Shown: positions 4,542 through 9,228 of the stretch, one piece after another
Layout of the letters: every line of letters starts with the position of its first letter
Position numbering within the stretch: position 1 is the stretch's first letter
Virus record (IMG/VR): IMGVR_UViG_3300005056_000021
Coordinates: 1 to 28,707 of that record
DNA from: a virus
DNA length: 28,707 nt
Strand: one strand, 5' to 3'
Translations under genes and position numbers: made by a program
The notes under the pieces: model-generated
The model's input: only the letters and a program-made list of their open reading frames with translations
Database searches by the model: none
What the model was told of the DNA's origin: nothing

Positions 4542-5180
4542 ATATGTACACCTTAGATTAAATAGAATGTAAAGAAGAACAAGAGACTCCTTTATACACC
4601 TGACTCCCTAAGCGCGGCAAGCACATCTGCCACATATATATTATTTATTATAACTATCAATCAACTACCTAGTCCGTAATCCAACAACCAACTAACTAAA
4701 CTCTCCCTACTCACACACTAAATTCTAACTAGCTTCCTATATAATATTATTTAGCCAGCGTAGCTGTCACCTTTAGGTGCCATCAACTAAAGTTCTAGCT
4801 AGTATAATAATAATTACTAGGTAGTTTACTCGTTATAGTCTAGGTAGTCCGTAGTATTGCACCATATATCAGGTAATAATAAGGGTTTAAATAGCCCAAA
4901 TCAGCCCATACTGAGGCTTTAAATTGAATCCCAAGCCAATATATTCCTCATAAATAGGGCTTAAAATAGGGCATTTGAGCGCCTAAATAATATTATATTG
5001 TGCTGGATAGTGGTCATTCAATCATGTAATAAGAGGCGCAAAAGCCTTAAAACGAAAGGAATTGGCTCTTTAAAGAACTTTCTCTATACAAATAAGCCAA
5101 TGTACAGGAATTAGGAAAATGCTTTAAAAAGCCCACTCAAAGCCATTTCTAGCTTCAAGTGAGAATTATTATGTTACTGG
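4542..5180. other. Gene-poor AT-rich intergenic region between tail and polymerase genes
   Basis: About 640 bp has no ORF longer than about 10 codons that I would accept. It holds two copies of the palindrome ATAATATTAT (near 4741 and 4987), a hairpin CACCTTTAGGTG (near 4769-4780), many short AGCCC/GGGCT words between 4890 and 4975, and CTAGGTAG octamers on the minus strand at 4665-4672 and on the plus strand at 4817-4824 and 4840-4847. TAGTCCGTA occurs next to two of these octamers. A promoter for the polymerase gene or a replication origin would fit such a region, but neither is proven. Confidence 0.5.
5061..5101 (-). terminator. Possible terminator after the tail operon
   Basis: A 7-bp inverted repeat, ATTGGCT (5061-5067) with AGCCAAT (5095-5101), has a 27-nt loop that includes a CTTTAAAG palindrome. 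On the minus strand it is followed by TTCCTTTCGTTTT. It lies 80 nt after the last gene of the tail region, where transcription would be expected to stop. The large loop and broken T-run keep confidence low. Confidence 0.25.
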
Positions 5181-5482
5181 TTATAAAGTGCCTTTGTACT
5201 CTTCGTGAGGTTTACCATCACTAAGTAGTTCAGCTACTCTGTCTTCATAAGTATAACTAGTTACACCGTTAGCTAATAGGAAGGTAACTAGGTAGCTAAC
5301 TCCATCTTTAGTTTCTTTGAAGTCCAAGTCACAATACTTAGAGTTTAATAAACGGTCACGAATGACTAATGCTTTAGTATCTTCCCATCTAGGATAAGTA
5401 CCTCTTCATCAACACTAAACCGTTTCTGCATTGAACCTACTGTAATTATTCTTACAGGAGTATCTACTTTAAATACTAACAT
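5181..5482 (-). pseudogene. Frameshifted paralogue of the 100-aa propeller-partner gene
   Basis: ATG 5482 overlaps the stop of the upstream propeller gene (TAATG), with AAGGA 7 nt ahead. The first 33 codons align with the intact gene at 6719-7021 (shared RIITVGSMQKRF and EEVLILDG). At the GGG at 5386-5384 one base is missing, and the frame ends at TAG after 38 aa. In the -1 frame the similarity resumes at once (CDLDF, FLLANGVTSYT, EDRVAELLSDGKP, EEYKG) to TAA at 5181. Restoring one G gives exactly 100 codons, the length of the intact copy. It is most simply a recent one-base deletion or a sequencing error in a G run. Slippage or a programmed -1 shift could also make the full protein. Confidence 0.75.
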
Positions 5483-6381
5483 TACTTAATCCTTACATAT
5501 AGGGGTTGTCCAGAATCAGAGTTAGTCTTTGCAGTTGTAATACCAACAACCTCAAGCTTGTGAGAGATTAAGTGGAGTTCATCACTAGTTGTTATCTGCA
5601 AGACATTTCCATCACCAACAACAAAGCCAGCACCAGTTACAGGAGAGTTTGCTGTGTTGATAGCTACACCGATACGAATACCAGTTGTTTTATTGAAATC
5701 ATACCAATCACCATCAGAGTTCAAGATTAATAAGACATTCGAGTCGGTGTAGTCTGTTCCCATAGCAAATGGATTTGCAACACTTGTTGTGGCGAAAGAG
5801 AAACCTGTGTAAACGTAACTTGCATTGAACTGGTAAACAGTATCGTTAACAAATTCACTAACCCACCAGAATGTACCATCCCAATGTGCGCCACCTACAT
5901 TGTTTGGAGTATAGCCAGTGCTGATACTATCTCCTTGAACTTGTGAGCCTGTAGTATCAAAGATGTGATACTTACCACCAAAGTTACCCCAGACAACAAT
6001 GTCTCCATTGGTATCTATATCCATACCTGCCCAACCACCAGCAGACAAGGAATAAGTAAGCCCTGTTAAGGTATAGTTAGTTGTTTCATATTGATGTACT
6101 ATGTTAGCAGCACCCTCAAGTACCCAAATAAAACCACCTATCTGAACCATATCGTGAGTGTCACCAGCAAAGTCTCCTGTCCAATCTGCAAGTATACCCA
6201 TAAGTACACCAGAGGATAAAGCTGAACCAGCATCAGGGTATTCACTAGCAAGAGCTAAATTACCTGTCTTTAACCAAGTAGTCGCGCCCACCTCATATAA
6301 GATAGGAACTTGGTAGAAATCTTGTATGGAACCAATAAGGAAACCACCACCACCTTTAAAGAAGTCACTTGACTTACTCAT
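5482..6381 (-). CDS. Beta-propeller-like tail/receptor-binding candidate, second paralogue
   Basis: This 299-aa protein is related to the product of 7023-7901. Both have a short N-terminus ending in a Gly run (FFKGGGGFL here), a matching segment around WLKTG/WLRTG, internal HWDGTFWWV-type strands, and the same C-terminal ending (SGQPLYVRI here, NGRPVYLKV there). The repeats WDG-x-x-hydrophobic-W/V at about 40-residue spacing suggest propeller blades, but only one copy (HWDGTFWWVSE) is well kept here. Start 6381 has AAGGAG at 7 nt. It overlaps both neighbours by one base (TAATG). Position after the tail fibre suggests a virion tip or host-recognition role. No enzymatic motif was seen. Confidence 0.6.
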   Translation of the reverse strand: MSKSSDFFKGGGGFLIGSIQDFYQVPILYEVGATTWLKTGNLALASEYPDAGSALSSGVLMGILADWTGDFAGDTHDMVQIGGFIWVLEGAANIVHQYETTNYTLTGLTYSLSAGGWAGMDIDTNGDIVVWGNFGGKYHIFDTTGSQVQGDSISTGYTPNNVGGAHWDGTFWWVSEFVNDTVYQFNASYVYTGFSFATTSVANPFAMGTDYTDSNVLLILNSDGDWYDFNKTTGIRIGVAINTANSPVTGAGFVVGDGNVLQITTSDELHLISHKLEVVGITTAKTNSDSGQPLYVRIK

Positions 6382-6719
6382 TATACATCTCCTTCAACAT
6401 CAATCTTTCTAATCTTCCAAAGCGAATTAGCTAAATCCCACCAGAATCTATACCCAGTTTTATCTTCATCTAATTCACAGTTCTTGTCAGCCACTACCAT
6501 TATGTCTCTAGCTGTACCTTCAACATAAACAGGGAATAAGGAATACAAGCCAGCACCACTAACATCTACCCATTGACCATCGAGTGGTGCTAAGGGTAGT
6601 ATTAATGTTGCAGCAGCAGCAGTATTGTCCATGACAACTCTATCACCTGCTAGGGCTACGTAGCCATCACTCCGAGGAATGAAAGCTCTTTCGTTGTTAA
6701 TGCCTCCACCTATATTCAT
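6381..6719 (-). CDS. Hypothetical tail-region protein, 112 aa
   Basis: I cannot assign a family. The N-terminus is Gly-rich (MNIGGGINN), followed by beta-rich sequence with evenly spaced hydrophobics, and WWDLANSLWKIRKIDVEG near the end resembles the strand-rich C-terminal parts of phage tail adhesins. It sits between the two propeller cassettes and overlaps its neighbours by one base on each side, so it is translated with them. The Gly-rich start resembles the Gly runs near the start of the propeller proteins and may be a shared attachment segment. A small tail-tip or fibre accessory protein is the best guess. Confidence 0.55.
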   Translation of the reverse strand: MNIGGGINNERAFIPRSDGYVALAGDRVVMDNTAAAATLILPLAPLDGQWVDVSGAGLYSLFPVYVEGTARDIMVVADKNCELDEDKTGYRFWWDLANSLWKIRKIDVEGDV

Positions 6720-7021
6720 TATAAGGCTCCTTTGTATTCTTCGGTAGGCTTACCATCACTTAGTAGTTCTGCAACTCTATCTTCTAAGGTATAACTAGTT
6801 ACACCATTAGCTAGCAAGAAGGCTACTATATAATTGACTCCATCAATAGTCTTCTTGAAGTCTAGGTCGCAATATTGAGAATTGAATAATCTACTCATAA
6901 TAACTTTAGCTAGGGTATCATCCCCATCTAGTATAAGTACTTCTTCGTTTTCATCAAAACGCTTTTGCATTGAACCTACAGTAATTATTCTTGTAGGAGT
7001 TTTCTTAAGTTGTTTAATCAT
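6719..7021 (-). CDS. Propeller-partner protein, 100 aa, intact copy
   Basis: A soluble mixed alpha/beta protein of unknown family (landmarks RIITVGSMQKRF, EEVLILDGDD, CDLDF, FLLANGVTSYT, ELLSDGKP). It follows the first propeller gene with a 1-nt gap; a frameshifted relative follows the second propeller gene in the same way. This repeated pairing suggests that it works with the propeller protein, for example as a dedicated chaperone, as is common for phage fibres, or as a small virion subunit. The start at 7021 has AAAGG and AGGA purine runs upstream, and the gene overlaps the next one as TAATG. The function is not established. Confidence 0.65.
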   Translation of the reverse strand: MIKQLKKTPTRIITVGSMQKRFDENEEVLILDGDDTLAKVIMSRLFNSQYCDLDFKKTIDGVNYIVAFLLANGVTSYTLEDRVAELLSDGKPTEEYKGAL

Positions 7022-7022
7022 C

Positions 7023-7901
7023 TTATCCTACCTTTAAATACACTGGTCTGCCATTAGCGTCAGGGTCTAACTCGGCTGTTGGGTCACCAACGTATGAATT
7101 AGAAGTAATATCATACTTAATTAAGTTATCGTTAGTTTGGTCAGACACTAGTAAAAGTGAGCCATCCCAAGCCATGCCACTTACCTTATAGCTACCATTA
7201 GTATTCTCAAACCATGAGCCTGTGAATTTACCTTCTACTGTATATTGATGCATTTCACCAGCAGTTTCGCCTAACCAGAAGTGAGTGCCATCCCAAGTAA
7301 CTTCATTGAAGGAAACAAGTCTACCTGCTACTAACTCTATTGTAATTCCTGTCTCTACAAATAAGCTATCAAGTTGAAGTAGTTCTGGACCATTTAACAC
7401 CCAGAAGAAAGTACCGTCATGACAAATAGCTGATATAGAAACTCCTGCTGGGTGTGTAACTGCCCCACCACTAGTCCCATCTAGGTTATACCTAACTGTA
7501 GCATTACTTTGACATACATATATATGCGTACCATCAAATACAGAATCGTTAGGTCCAGATAGACCTGTGCCACCATAAGTATTTAATAGGTTACCAGCAG
7601 GGCTAAACTTAAGCATCTGGAAGAACCCATTAACACTATCAGTAGTTTCAATAATCCAAATGTTAGTGCCATCCCAAGAACAACCTCTAGGGTTATCTCT
7701 ATTACCTGTACTAAATATAGAGTCTTGTACTCCTTCTATAAACGAAGGAGCATTAGGATATACTGATGGGTTTGTTTCTACATAGCCAGTCCTTAGCCAT
7801 TGCCCACCTGAGTCATCTGTTAATTTTACAGTATAATCATTAAATGCTTTATAGGTGTTTATTGGTATACCACCACCACTTCTTCCTACTTCAATAGTCA
7901 T
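7023..7901 (-). CDS. Beta-propeller-like tail/receptor-binding candidate, first paralogue
   Basis: I place the start at ATG 7901 (MTIEVGRSGGG, 292 aa) because GGAG stands 8 nt ahead; the in-frame ATG at 7928 has no ribosome binding site and would overlap the fibre gene. The protein contains at least five blade-like motifs: WDGTNIWI, FDGTHIYV, HDGTFFWV, WDGTHFWL and WDGSLLLV, each about 40 residues apart. This is the pattern of NHL/Kelch-like beta-propellers. The C-terminus NGRPVYLKVG is shared with the paralogue at 5482-6381. It lies directly after the tail fibre gene, so a role in host-surface binding is likely but inferred. No catalytic residues were recognised. Confidence 0.65.
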   Translation of the reverse strand: MTIEVGRSGGGIPINTYKAFNDYTVKLTDDSGGQWLRTGYVETNPSVYPNAPSFIEGVQDSIFSTGNRDNPRGCSWDGTNIWIIETTDSVNGFFQMLKFSPAGNLLNTYGGTGLSGPNDSVFDGTHIYVCQSNATVRYNLDGTSGGAVTHPAGVSISAICHDGTFFWVLNGPELLQLDSLFVETGITIELVAGRLVSFNEVTWDGTHFWLGETAGEMHQYTVEGKFTGSWFENTNGSYKVSGMAWDGSLLLVSDQTNDNLIKYDITSNSYVGDPTAELDPDANGRPVYLKVG

Positions 7902-7902
7902 A

Positions 7903-9228
7903 TTAAAGACTCCATGTTGTAACGCCATCAGACGTTAGTGTTAATCTAGCAGCACCTACCCAAGTAATACTTGTGTCTGTACCATCTTTATCTTCTACCA
8001 AGTCAGTACCAGAACGTATTAACATAGGAGTTTGGTCGCTGTACTTATCAGGTAGCTCCACTACTAATATAGTGTCAGCTTCCACAGTATTAGCCAAAGG
8101 TATAGTAAATGTACCACTATCTCTAATTTGATTAATAACTCCACCAGTAATGACAAAGCCATTGATAGTATGAGGTATTAACTTATGAGAAGCATCTTCA
8201 CCATCCAAACCATCTTTAGCTCTTTCAAATACAGCCCACTCACTAACACCATCTGACACTAGCTCAACTAAGGCAGGTCCGATAAAGTTTAGTACATTAT
8301 CTGTACCAGTAGAGTTTCTGAATAAGTCACCACCATCAGCCGTAACACTAGGTGTTTTGGTCTTGTAGTTATCAGATAGTTCTATGTACATAATAGTATT
8401 TACATCAACACTGTTAGCAGCAGGAGCAGTAAAGCTTCCACTGTCTCTAAGTTGATTGATAACACCACCAGTAATAGTCTCACCTGAAACAGTCATGGGG
8501 TTTACTGTCGTAACACCTTCATCTACTGCCCAGTTATTATCTTTACGAGTGTAAGCCTTACCATCAGCAGGAGCATCAGGAATAGTACCTGCTACATCAG
8601 CCTGAGTAGGCTTATTACCTTCATGGTAAATACTCCAACCATCAGCATTTAAGTCTACACTATTAGGGTCAGTTACATTGGCAGCGTTATATACCATCAA
8701 CTTACCACGAACATTACCAAATATTAGGTTGTCGTAAGTAATACCTTCTACATTTAAAGCTATGATACTATTCTTATTCAAAAGAGTTAGGTCATTGCTT
8801 TCCCATAGTTCGGTAGAAGTACGTACATTCACTGCATCTAACTTAACTCCTTCTTTAGGTAGTAAGTTAGAGTAAGCACTAGCATTACTACTAAACACTG
8901 TACCAGCTACCCAGTAAGAGTTAGTTACATCTGCTATAGGGTCTTGAGGATTTGAGCCAGCAGCATCATTATGTGTAGTAATACACGTATAAATTATGTT
9001 ACCAGCCTTAACTCGCGCACCAGCTTGGTAAGCTATTAAGTCCTGCCAAGGGTATACGTCACTCTCAGCATAAGATAGTTTAGCTTTGTCTAGTCCTTGT
9101 AGGACATAGTTAAAATTTTGGAAGGTAGGTATTTCCGCTTCCCAACCAGTCTGGTATTTGGTATCAGTAGGGTCAGTAACCCCACCAGTATCAGCCCAGA
9201 TTAAATGTAATCCTTGAGGATTTGTCAT
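7903..9228 (-). CDS. Tail fibre protein with duplicated C-terminal domain
   Basis: This 441-aa protein begins with a segment typical of virion attachment (WADTGGVTDPTDTKYQTGW), then a carbohydrate-binding-like motif around residues 55-100 (YPWQDLIAYQAGARVKAG, then IIYTCITTHNDAAGSNP), a middle domain with YHEGNKPTQADVAGTIP as in many fibre repeats, and two tandem copies of a domain of about 95 aa. The copies start TITGGVINQLRDSG and VITGGVINQIRDSG and are joined by a GLDGED collagen-like turn. It follows the gpI-like baseplate gene, the usual place for a fibre. The fibre call is well supported by context; the receptor is unknown. Confidence 0.75.
   Translation of the reverse strand: MTNPQGLHLIWADTGGVTDPTDTKYQTGWEAEIPTFQNFNYVLQGLDKAKLSYAESDVYPWQDLIAYQAGARVKAGNIIYTCITTHNDAAGSNPQDPIADVTNSYWVAGTVFSSNASAYSNLLPKEGVKLDAVNVRTSTELWESNDLTLLNKNSIIALNVEGITYDNLIFGNVRGKLMVYNAANVTDPNSVDLNADGWSIYHEGNKPTQADVAGTIPDAPADGKAYTRKDNNWAVDEGVTTVNPMTVSGETITGGVINQLRDSGSFTAPAANSVDVNTIMYIELSDNYKTKTPSVTADGGDLFRNSTGTDNVLNFIGPALVELVSDGVSEWAVFERAKDGLDGEDASHKLIPHTINGFVITGGVINQIRDSGTFTIPLANTVEADTILVVELPDKYSDQTPMLIRSGTDLVEDKDGTDTSITWVGAARLTLTSDGVTTWSL

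Follow-up and report, generated by a model that had tools for sequence, protein, structure and literature searches.

The window, the whole 28,707-nucleotide stretch of an IMG/VR virus record (IMGVR_UViG_3300005056_000021) that was analyzed, carries at 9228-5181 a row of genes on the minus strand, to which all features in this paragraph belong; this fiber and propeller region sits downstream of baseplate J-like and fiber genes. The row opens with a 441-aa tail fiber (7903..9228) that has a conserved tail-fiber N-terminus (phrog_8147, E 9.4e-17), followed by propeller A (292 aa; 7023..7901), partner A (100 aa; 6719..7021), a stand-alone 112-aa protein with a putative adaptor domain (6381..6719), propeller B (299 aa; 5482..6381), and partner B (5181..5482), the last of which is interrupted by a one-base frame break. 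One-base TAATG overlaps are present at three of the junctions (6719, 6381, and 5482). A hairpin at 5132..5163, which starts 18 nt after partner B, is the sole terminator-like site on either strand between 4400 and 9300, where 2.8 would be expected by chance; it is probably the end of the tail operon. An earlier note on this DNA had described the pair of propeller and 100-aa partner as present twice with a 112-aa gene between, and both the genes and their order are as described; the position of the 112-aa gene stands, however it is a member of the repeated unit rather than a mere spacer. Adjoining the contractile-tail module on the same strand, a 700-aa protein (4427-2325) gives a weak match to phage-type RNA polymerases (Pfam RNA_pol, E 4.4e-4, below the cut-off).

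Propeller A is predicted to be a five-bladed β-propeller, spanning approximately residues 51-272 between conserved N- and C-terminal caps. Its AF2 model, built with 24 sequences, has a pLDDT of 86.9 and a pTM of 0.78; the best solved match for residues 51-272 is the glutaminyl cyclase from Xanthomonas (VIA-align, 213 residues aligned at rmsd 2.5, Z 24.9), a five-bladed enzyme, and Foldseek is in agreement. The start and end motifs that the earlier note had seen in both propellers are confirmed, with a similarity beyond chance: the local score of A against B is 113, whereas shuffles average 42.5 (sd 7.2) and 0 of 1000 score as high. These motifs fall outside the blades, within residues 1-50 and the last ~20 of A; they are read as caps because a 70-aa gene between propeller and partner in a related locus (L065:6036-6248; related loci are numbered with L) carries the N-cap and C-cap motifs only, with no blades, perhaps as a natural deletion of them. 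In a blastp comparison of the pooled ORFs with a limit of E ≤ 1, neither propeller lists the other, and phmmer --max links them weakly (E 0.035 and 0.0012); their kinship nonetheless rests securely on the relatives that both match by phmmer. Both window propellers also match a propeller family HMM from marine arrays at full length, including the N-cap and C-cap; they are two of the 24 seeds of this HMM, and each matches relatives singly by phmmer. The N-terminus of propeller B is of the second-position type (type II). Propeller A is considered a probable receptor-binding protein (RBP) based on its position, its fold, and the swapping described below.

Three-gene units in relatives

Using propeller A as query, 42 IMG/VR loci were found, and a propeller profile gave 94 loci, 80 of them retained. 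The gene maps of the relatives feature rows of three-gene units, each with an adaptor domain, an RBP, and a small partner in that order; the RBP slot holds either a propeller or a Gly-rich protein/adhesin (Pfam Gly_rich_2, E 5.4e-12 in L005), and the longest rows contain five RBP genes (L016, L064). The earlier claim that the conserved pairing reflects a functional unit at the tail tip is supported by these relatives, which carry the unit in series. Single-sequence queries with partner A, the J protein, and propeller B gave no confirmed relatives among viral contigs, and partner A gave none among genome contigs; tblastn of the partner and propeller A against a phage genome collection returned nothing at E 0.01, and at an E limit of 10 the partner returned five rows with E values from 0.7 to 6.

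The 112 viral loci yielded 159 complete RBP genes, which clustering at 90% identity grouped into 52 propeller and 26 Gly-rich clusters (78 in all); incomplete RBP genes and ORFs of at least 700 aa had been removed beforehand. An adaptor domain lies upstream in 39 of the 52 propeller clusters and in 25 of the 25 Gly-rich clusters with flank, and an APC-like partner lies downstream in 36/50 and 25/25, respectively; the HMM seeds for adaptor and partner come from the same loci, themselves gathered by propeller, so that the counts depend on how the search was made. Allowing genes hidden by overlaps brought the propeller clusters with an APC-like partner from 33 to 36 of 50; one of these 36 partners ends 143 codons downstream and the other 35 end at 65-75. 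The propeller clusters that are without an APC-like partner (14 of 50) or without a recognized adaptor (13 of 52) count against the interpretation favored below. The length of the APC-like partner follows the type of RBP, being under 88 aa in 33/33 clusters after propellers and 94-110 aa in 25/25 clusters after Gly-rich proteins (Fisher p 5.7e-17, with clusters that are not independent); this match is not due to ancestry only, since both RBP types are found side by side in one contig.

The 112-aa protein of the window resembles, as a stand-alone version, the domain found upstream of propellers in the relatives, and it is part of the repeated unit. An adaptor HMM built without the window finds the 112-aa gene at E 2.4e-4 as the best of 12 targets (next 0.18), and all 24 non-self rows among the phmmer matches listed directly precede a propeller; a weaker link to the adaptor family is given by hhalign (35% probability, E 3.9e-4, 41 columns). 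The C-terminus of the 441-aa fiber (8517-7906) is made of two tandem repeats of ~100 aa that are 45% identical; from their position, these repeats would be the adaptor for propeller A. The HMM and further profile comparisons detect no similarity between the repeats and the adaptor family, which counts against the favored interpretation. Within the same fiber, residues 61-97 (9048-8938) match a CBM_5_12 carbohydrate-binding module at E 1.5e-4, below the Pfam cut-off.

A propeller search of genome contigs gave 59 loci, all cellular-genome loci that were excluded from every count given here; by HMM one of their ORFs is full-length and phage-like (L141), and the other listed ORFs cover the profile in part. 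The L141 locus, from Pseudoalteromonas denitrificans DSM 6059 (L141:4771-6116), has a 362-aa propeller followed by an 85-aa gene that matches phrog_26358 (E 1e-4).

The small partners

The partners of the relatives match Pfam Phage_tail_APC and resemble the 'tail fiber assembly' proteins of Pseudomonas phages. The earlier note had suggested a receptor-binding protein with its chaperone, and this is the likeliest reading given the Phage_tail_APC family of the relatives' partners, the "tail fiber assembly" annotation of their homologues, and the match between partner size and RBP type; the APC evidence applies to the relatives rather than to the window partner, which has no Pfam match to Phage_tail_APC (PF16778) and no match to the local APC HMM. 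The possibility that APC and phrog_25252 form a single family was rejected as no link between the two was found.

Sequence comparison places the window partner in the phrog_25252 family, which is different from APC. An HMM of three family members, all from outside the window (the L065 98-aa protein, the Slicky01 109-aa protein, and AcaML1 Gp53), finds partner A at E 1.4e-6 as the best of 115 window ORFs, with the next at 0.25. Pairwise, partner A and the L065 98-aa protein give a z of 9.7 (0/2000 shuffles); the match of partner A to phrog_25252 itself is in register but weak alone (E 0.041, 2-87 to 48-128), and its pairwise similarity to just the Slicky01 member falls short of significance, as 59 of 1000 shuffles score as high. 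The phrog_25252 profile search gives a match in Slicky01 and none in the record of L065. A similar gene order recurs with this partner family, based on three gene contexts: in L065 the phrog_25252-type gene follows a propeller and its bladeless neighbor; in the Pseudoalteromonas phage Slicky01 it comes after a 616-aa gene, itself preceded by a 674-aa gene; and in the cultured Acidithiobacillus phage AcaML1 (L178:3065-5237, Gp51-Gp53) a 103-aa 'phage tail fiber-like protein' and a 470-aa protein precede the phrog_25252-like partner.

Partner A is graded a probable RBP-specific chaperone. Its AF2 model, with a pLDDT of 49, is too poor for structure search or for support of contacts, and no solved chain matches the family of the window partner, which counts against this assignment. 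It is less likely that the partner is a permanent part of the virion, such as a hinge, cap, or second tip protein, in which case the unit would be a three-protein fiber tip; the place of the window partner outside the APC family, and in a family (phrog_25252) without known function, would allow for this. However, the slot in relatives holds Phage_tail_APC-like proteins and homologues of 'tail fiber assembly' proteins, and the variety of families found there (PF16778, phrog_25252, phrog_31598, and phrog_26358) is more in keeping with a helper than with a structural contact that is fixed.

The similarity between partners A and B, which the earlier note had aligned over all 100 residues, is upheld, but the alignment is continuous only across a frame break. 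The partner B stretch (5482-5181, 302 nt) has no single open frame; the first frame encodes 38 aa from an ATG at 5482 to a stop at 5366, the second runs from 5405 to 5181, and the one-base break lies between ~5405 and 5366. The two partners share 22/26 residues before the break and 52/67 after, ~80% overall. A programmed frameshift was rejected, as no -1 slippery heptamer (XXXYYYZ) lies within the 40 nt that the two frames share. Differences between the partners fall on the third codon position in 8 of 14 cases before the break and 31 of 53 after; this excess on both sides indicates that both halves were coding until recently, or that the break is a sequencing error. The DNA pattern across the break has no second copy among IMG/VR viral contigs.

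The break, along with the frame overlap that lacks a slippery heptamer, could be taken as decay of the second unit, with partner B as a pseudogene and propeller B unused. This is considered improbable, as the third-position excess on both sides, like the intact frame of the 299-aa propeller B, is what a recent break or sequencing error would leave, and the terminator-like hairpin is still present downstream.

Origin of the two units

The identity between propellers A and B, at 21%, is below the likeness of either to propellers of other phages. Propeller A is closest to that of L046 (37%, E 4e-54), which it joins in the tree with a support of 100/89; propeller B is closest to the second-position propellers of L096 and L097 (E 3e-9) and sits on a very long branch (3.21), in a tree that left out L102 and propellers below 240 or above 400 aa. 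For the other contigs with two propellers in the tree, the row nearest to each propeller is in a different contig in 7/7 cases. The N-terminal type of window A follows long fibers in 23 of 25 propeller clusters; the type of window B follows short stand-alone adaptors in 6/14 clusters, where the first type is found in 5/14, and these classes were defined after inspection of the data.

Exchange of a whole unit is seen between two related contigs. L046 and L065 share DNA that is 84% identical up to L046:4008 and 94% identical from L046:5786; between these flanks the collar end at the adaptor position differs, the propellers are 37% identical, and the partners have no detectable similarity, which is read from the sequences as a natural swap of a whole unit.

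The earlier view that the cassette was duplicated in place and that the propellers then diverged is unsupported by these relationships, as the nearest kin of A and B are in other phages. A simple tandem duplication of propeller and partner within the lineage, after which host pressure would have driven the propellers apart quickly, is left doubtful: the partners are ~80% identical and a clade of A and B is not rejected by the AU test (p 0.094), however A groups with L046, A and B fail to find each other by blastp, two propellers of one contig are never nearest neighbors in the 7 other contigs, and the N-termini of A and B match those seen at first and second position, respectively, in unrelated phages. 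The high identity of the partners alongside the low identity of the propellers fits either an exchange of propellers between conserved partners or a recent copying of the partner.

A proposed receptor-binding array and known systems

The best explanation, to which we assign a probability of about 0.68, is that a contractile-tail operon ends, at 9228-5181, in a receptor-binding array of two units, each with an adaptor, a propeller, and a partner. The adaptor of unit 1 would be the C-terminal part of the 441-aa fiber, as judged by position, and that of unit 2 would be the stand-alone 112-aa protein. The propeller is hypothesized to attach to the adaptor through its caps, with the blades in contact with the host surface, where the target is probably a glycan; the small partner, translated directly after the propeller, may aid its folding or assembly and is probably missing from the finished tip. 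The gene order of the unit, its repetition in relatives with either RBP fold, the pairing of partner type with RBP type, and one whole-unit exchange are seen in the sequences, and receptor binding, docking, chaperoning, and the contact between partner and propeller are steps that we infer. An extension that we hold only tentatively is a plug-and-socket arrangement, in which stand-alone adaptors would be released copies of the last domain of the fiber, units would be added serially to give 2-5 different RBP folds per virion, and whole units would be exchanged with the rest of the tail untouched.

Among phage RBPs, a five-bladed propeller domain is known from Gp45 of the Staphylococcus phage phi11 (PMC4901313, by its available text). 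The Gp45 propeller, five-bladed as predicted for propeller A, belongs to an RBP of the baseplate, and GlcNAc has been proposed to sit in its central cavity; in the same part of that account, Gp45 is a single trimeric multidomain protein with stem and tower, in contrast to the separate propeller gene product here, and the likeness is one of description (PMC4901313). A structural precedent for the pairing is given by gp24-gp25 of Pam3, a Gly-rich tail fiber with a trimeric chaperone; as proposed for the window, a small chaperone gene accompanies the RBP, and Gly-rich RBPs are also present in the array relatives (PMC9608196, by its accessible portion). In that portion the Pam3 chaperone gp25 is modular, with an N-terminal domain that varies with the client and a conserved C-terminal helical domain, and the system is described as a single fiber-chaperone pair with no propeller (PMC9608196). 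Comparison of one Gly-rich protein and the APC profile with solved phage chains found no sequence link.

The branched tail-spike complex of the Ackermannviridae is similar in having several exchangeable RBP genes with conserved N-terminal domains, and host recognition in that family shifts with tail-spike swaps; the available text mentions no small partner after each RBP, and the likeness is again drawn from description (PMC11414711). The cultured Lentibacter phage vB_LenP_ICBM2 has a relative of the propeller, a 'tail assembly chaperone', a further large gene, and a second chaperone in order; it differs in that the propeller gene encodes 403 aa and is followed by APC-like chaperones of 137-141 aa. 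ICBM2 and the cobaviruses are also podoviruses with short tails (PMC6775973, according to the part available), unlike the contractile-tail phage of the window. No paper describing an adaptor-RBP-partner unit was identified in open-licence PMC, which is weak evidence of absence.

The plug-in RBP array is read as a variation on known fiber-plus-chaperone and multi-RBP systems and not as a new kind of system; its points of note are the regularity of the three-gene rows, in which folds can be exchanged and partners are matched, and the placing of phrog_25252. This family without known function gains a handle, in that its members are found after genes in the RBP position in the window, L065, Slicky01, and AcaML1. 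If the proposed array is correct, the size of the partner would reveal the RBP fold it serves, and the host range of many uncultured marine phages would be legible from the unit, with the number of adaptor-RBP-partner sets equal to the number of grips on the host.
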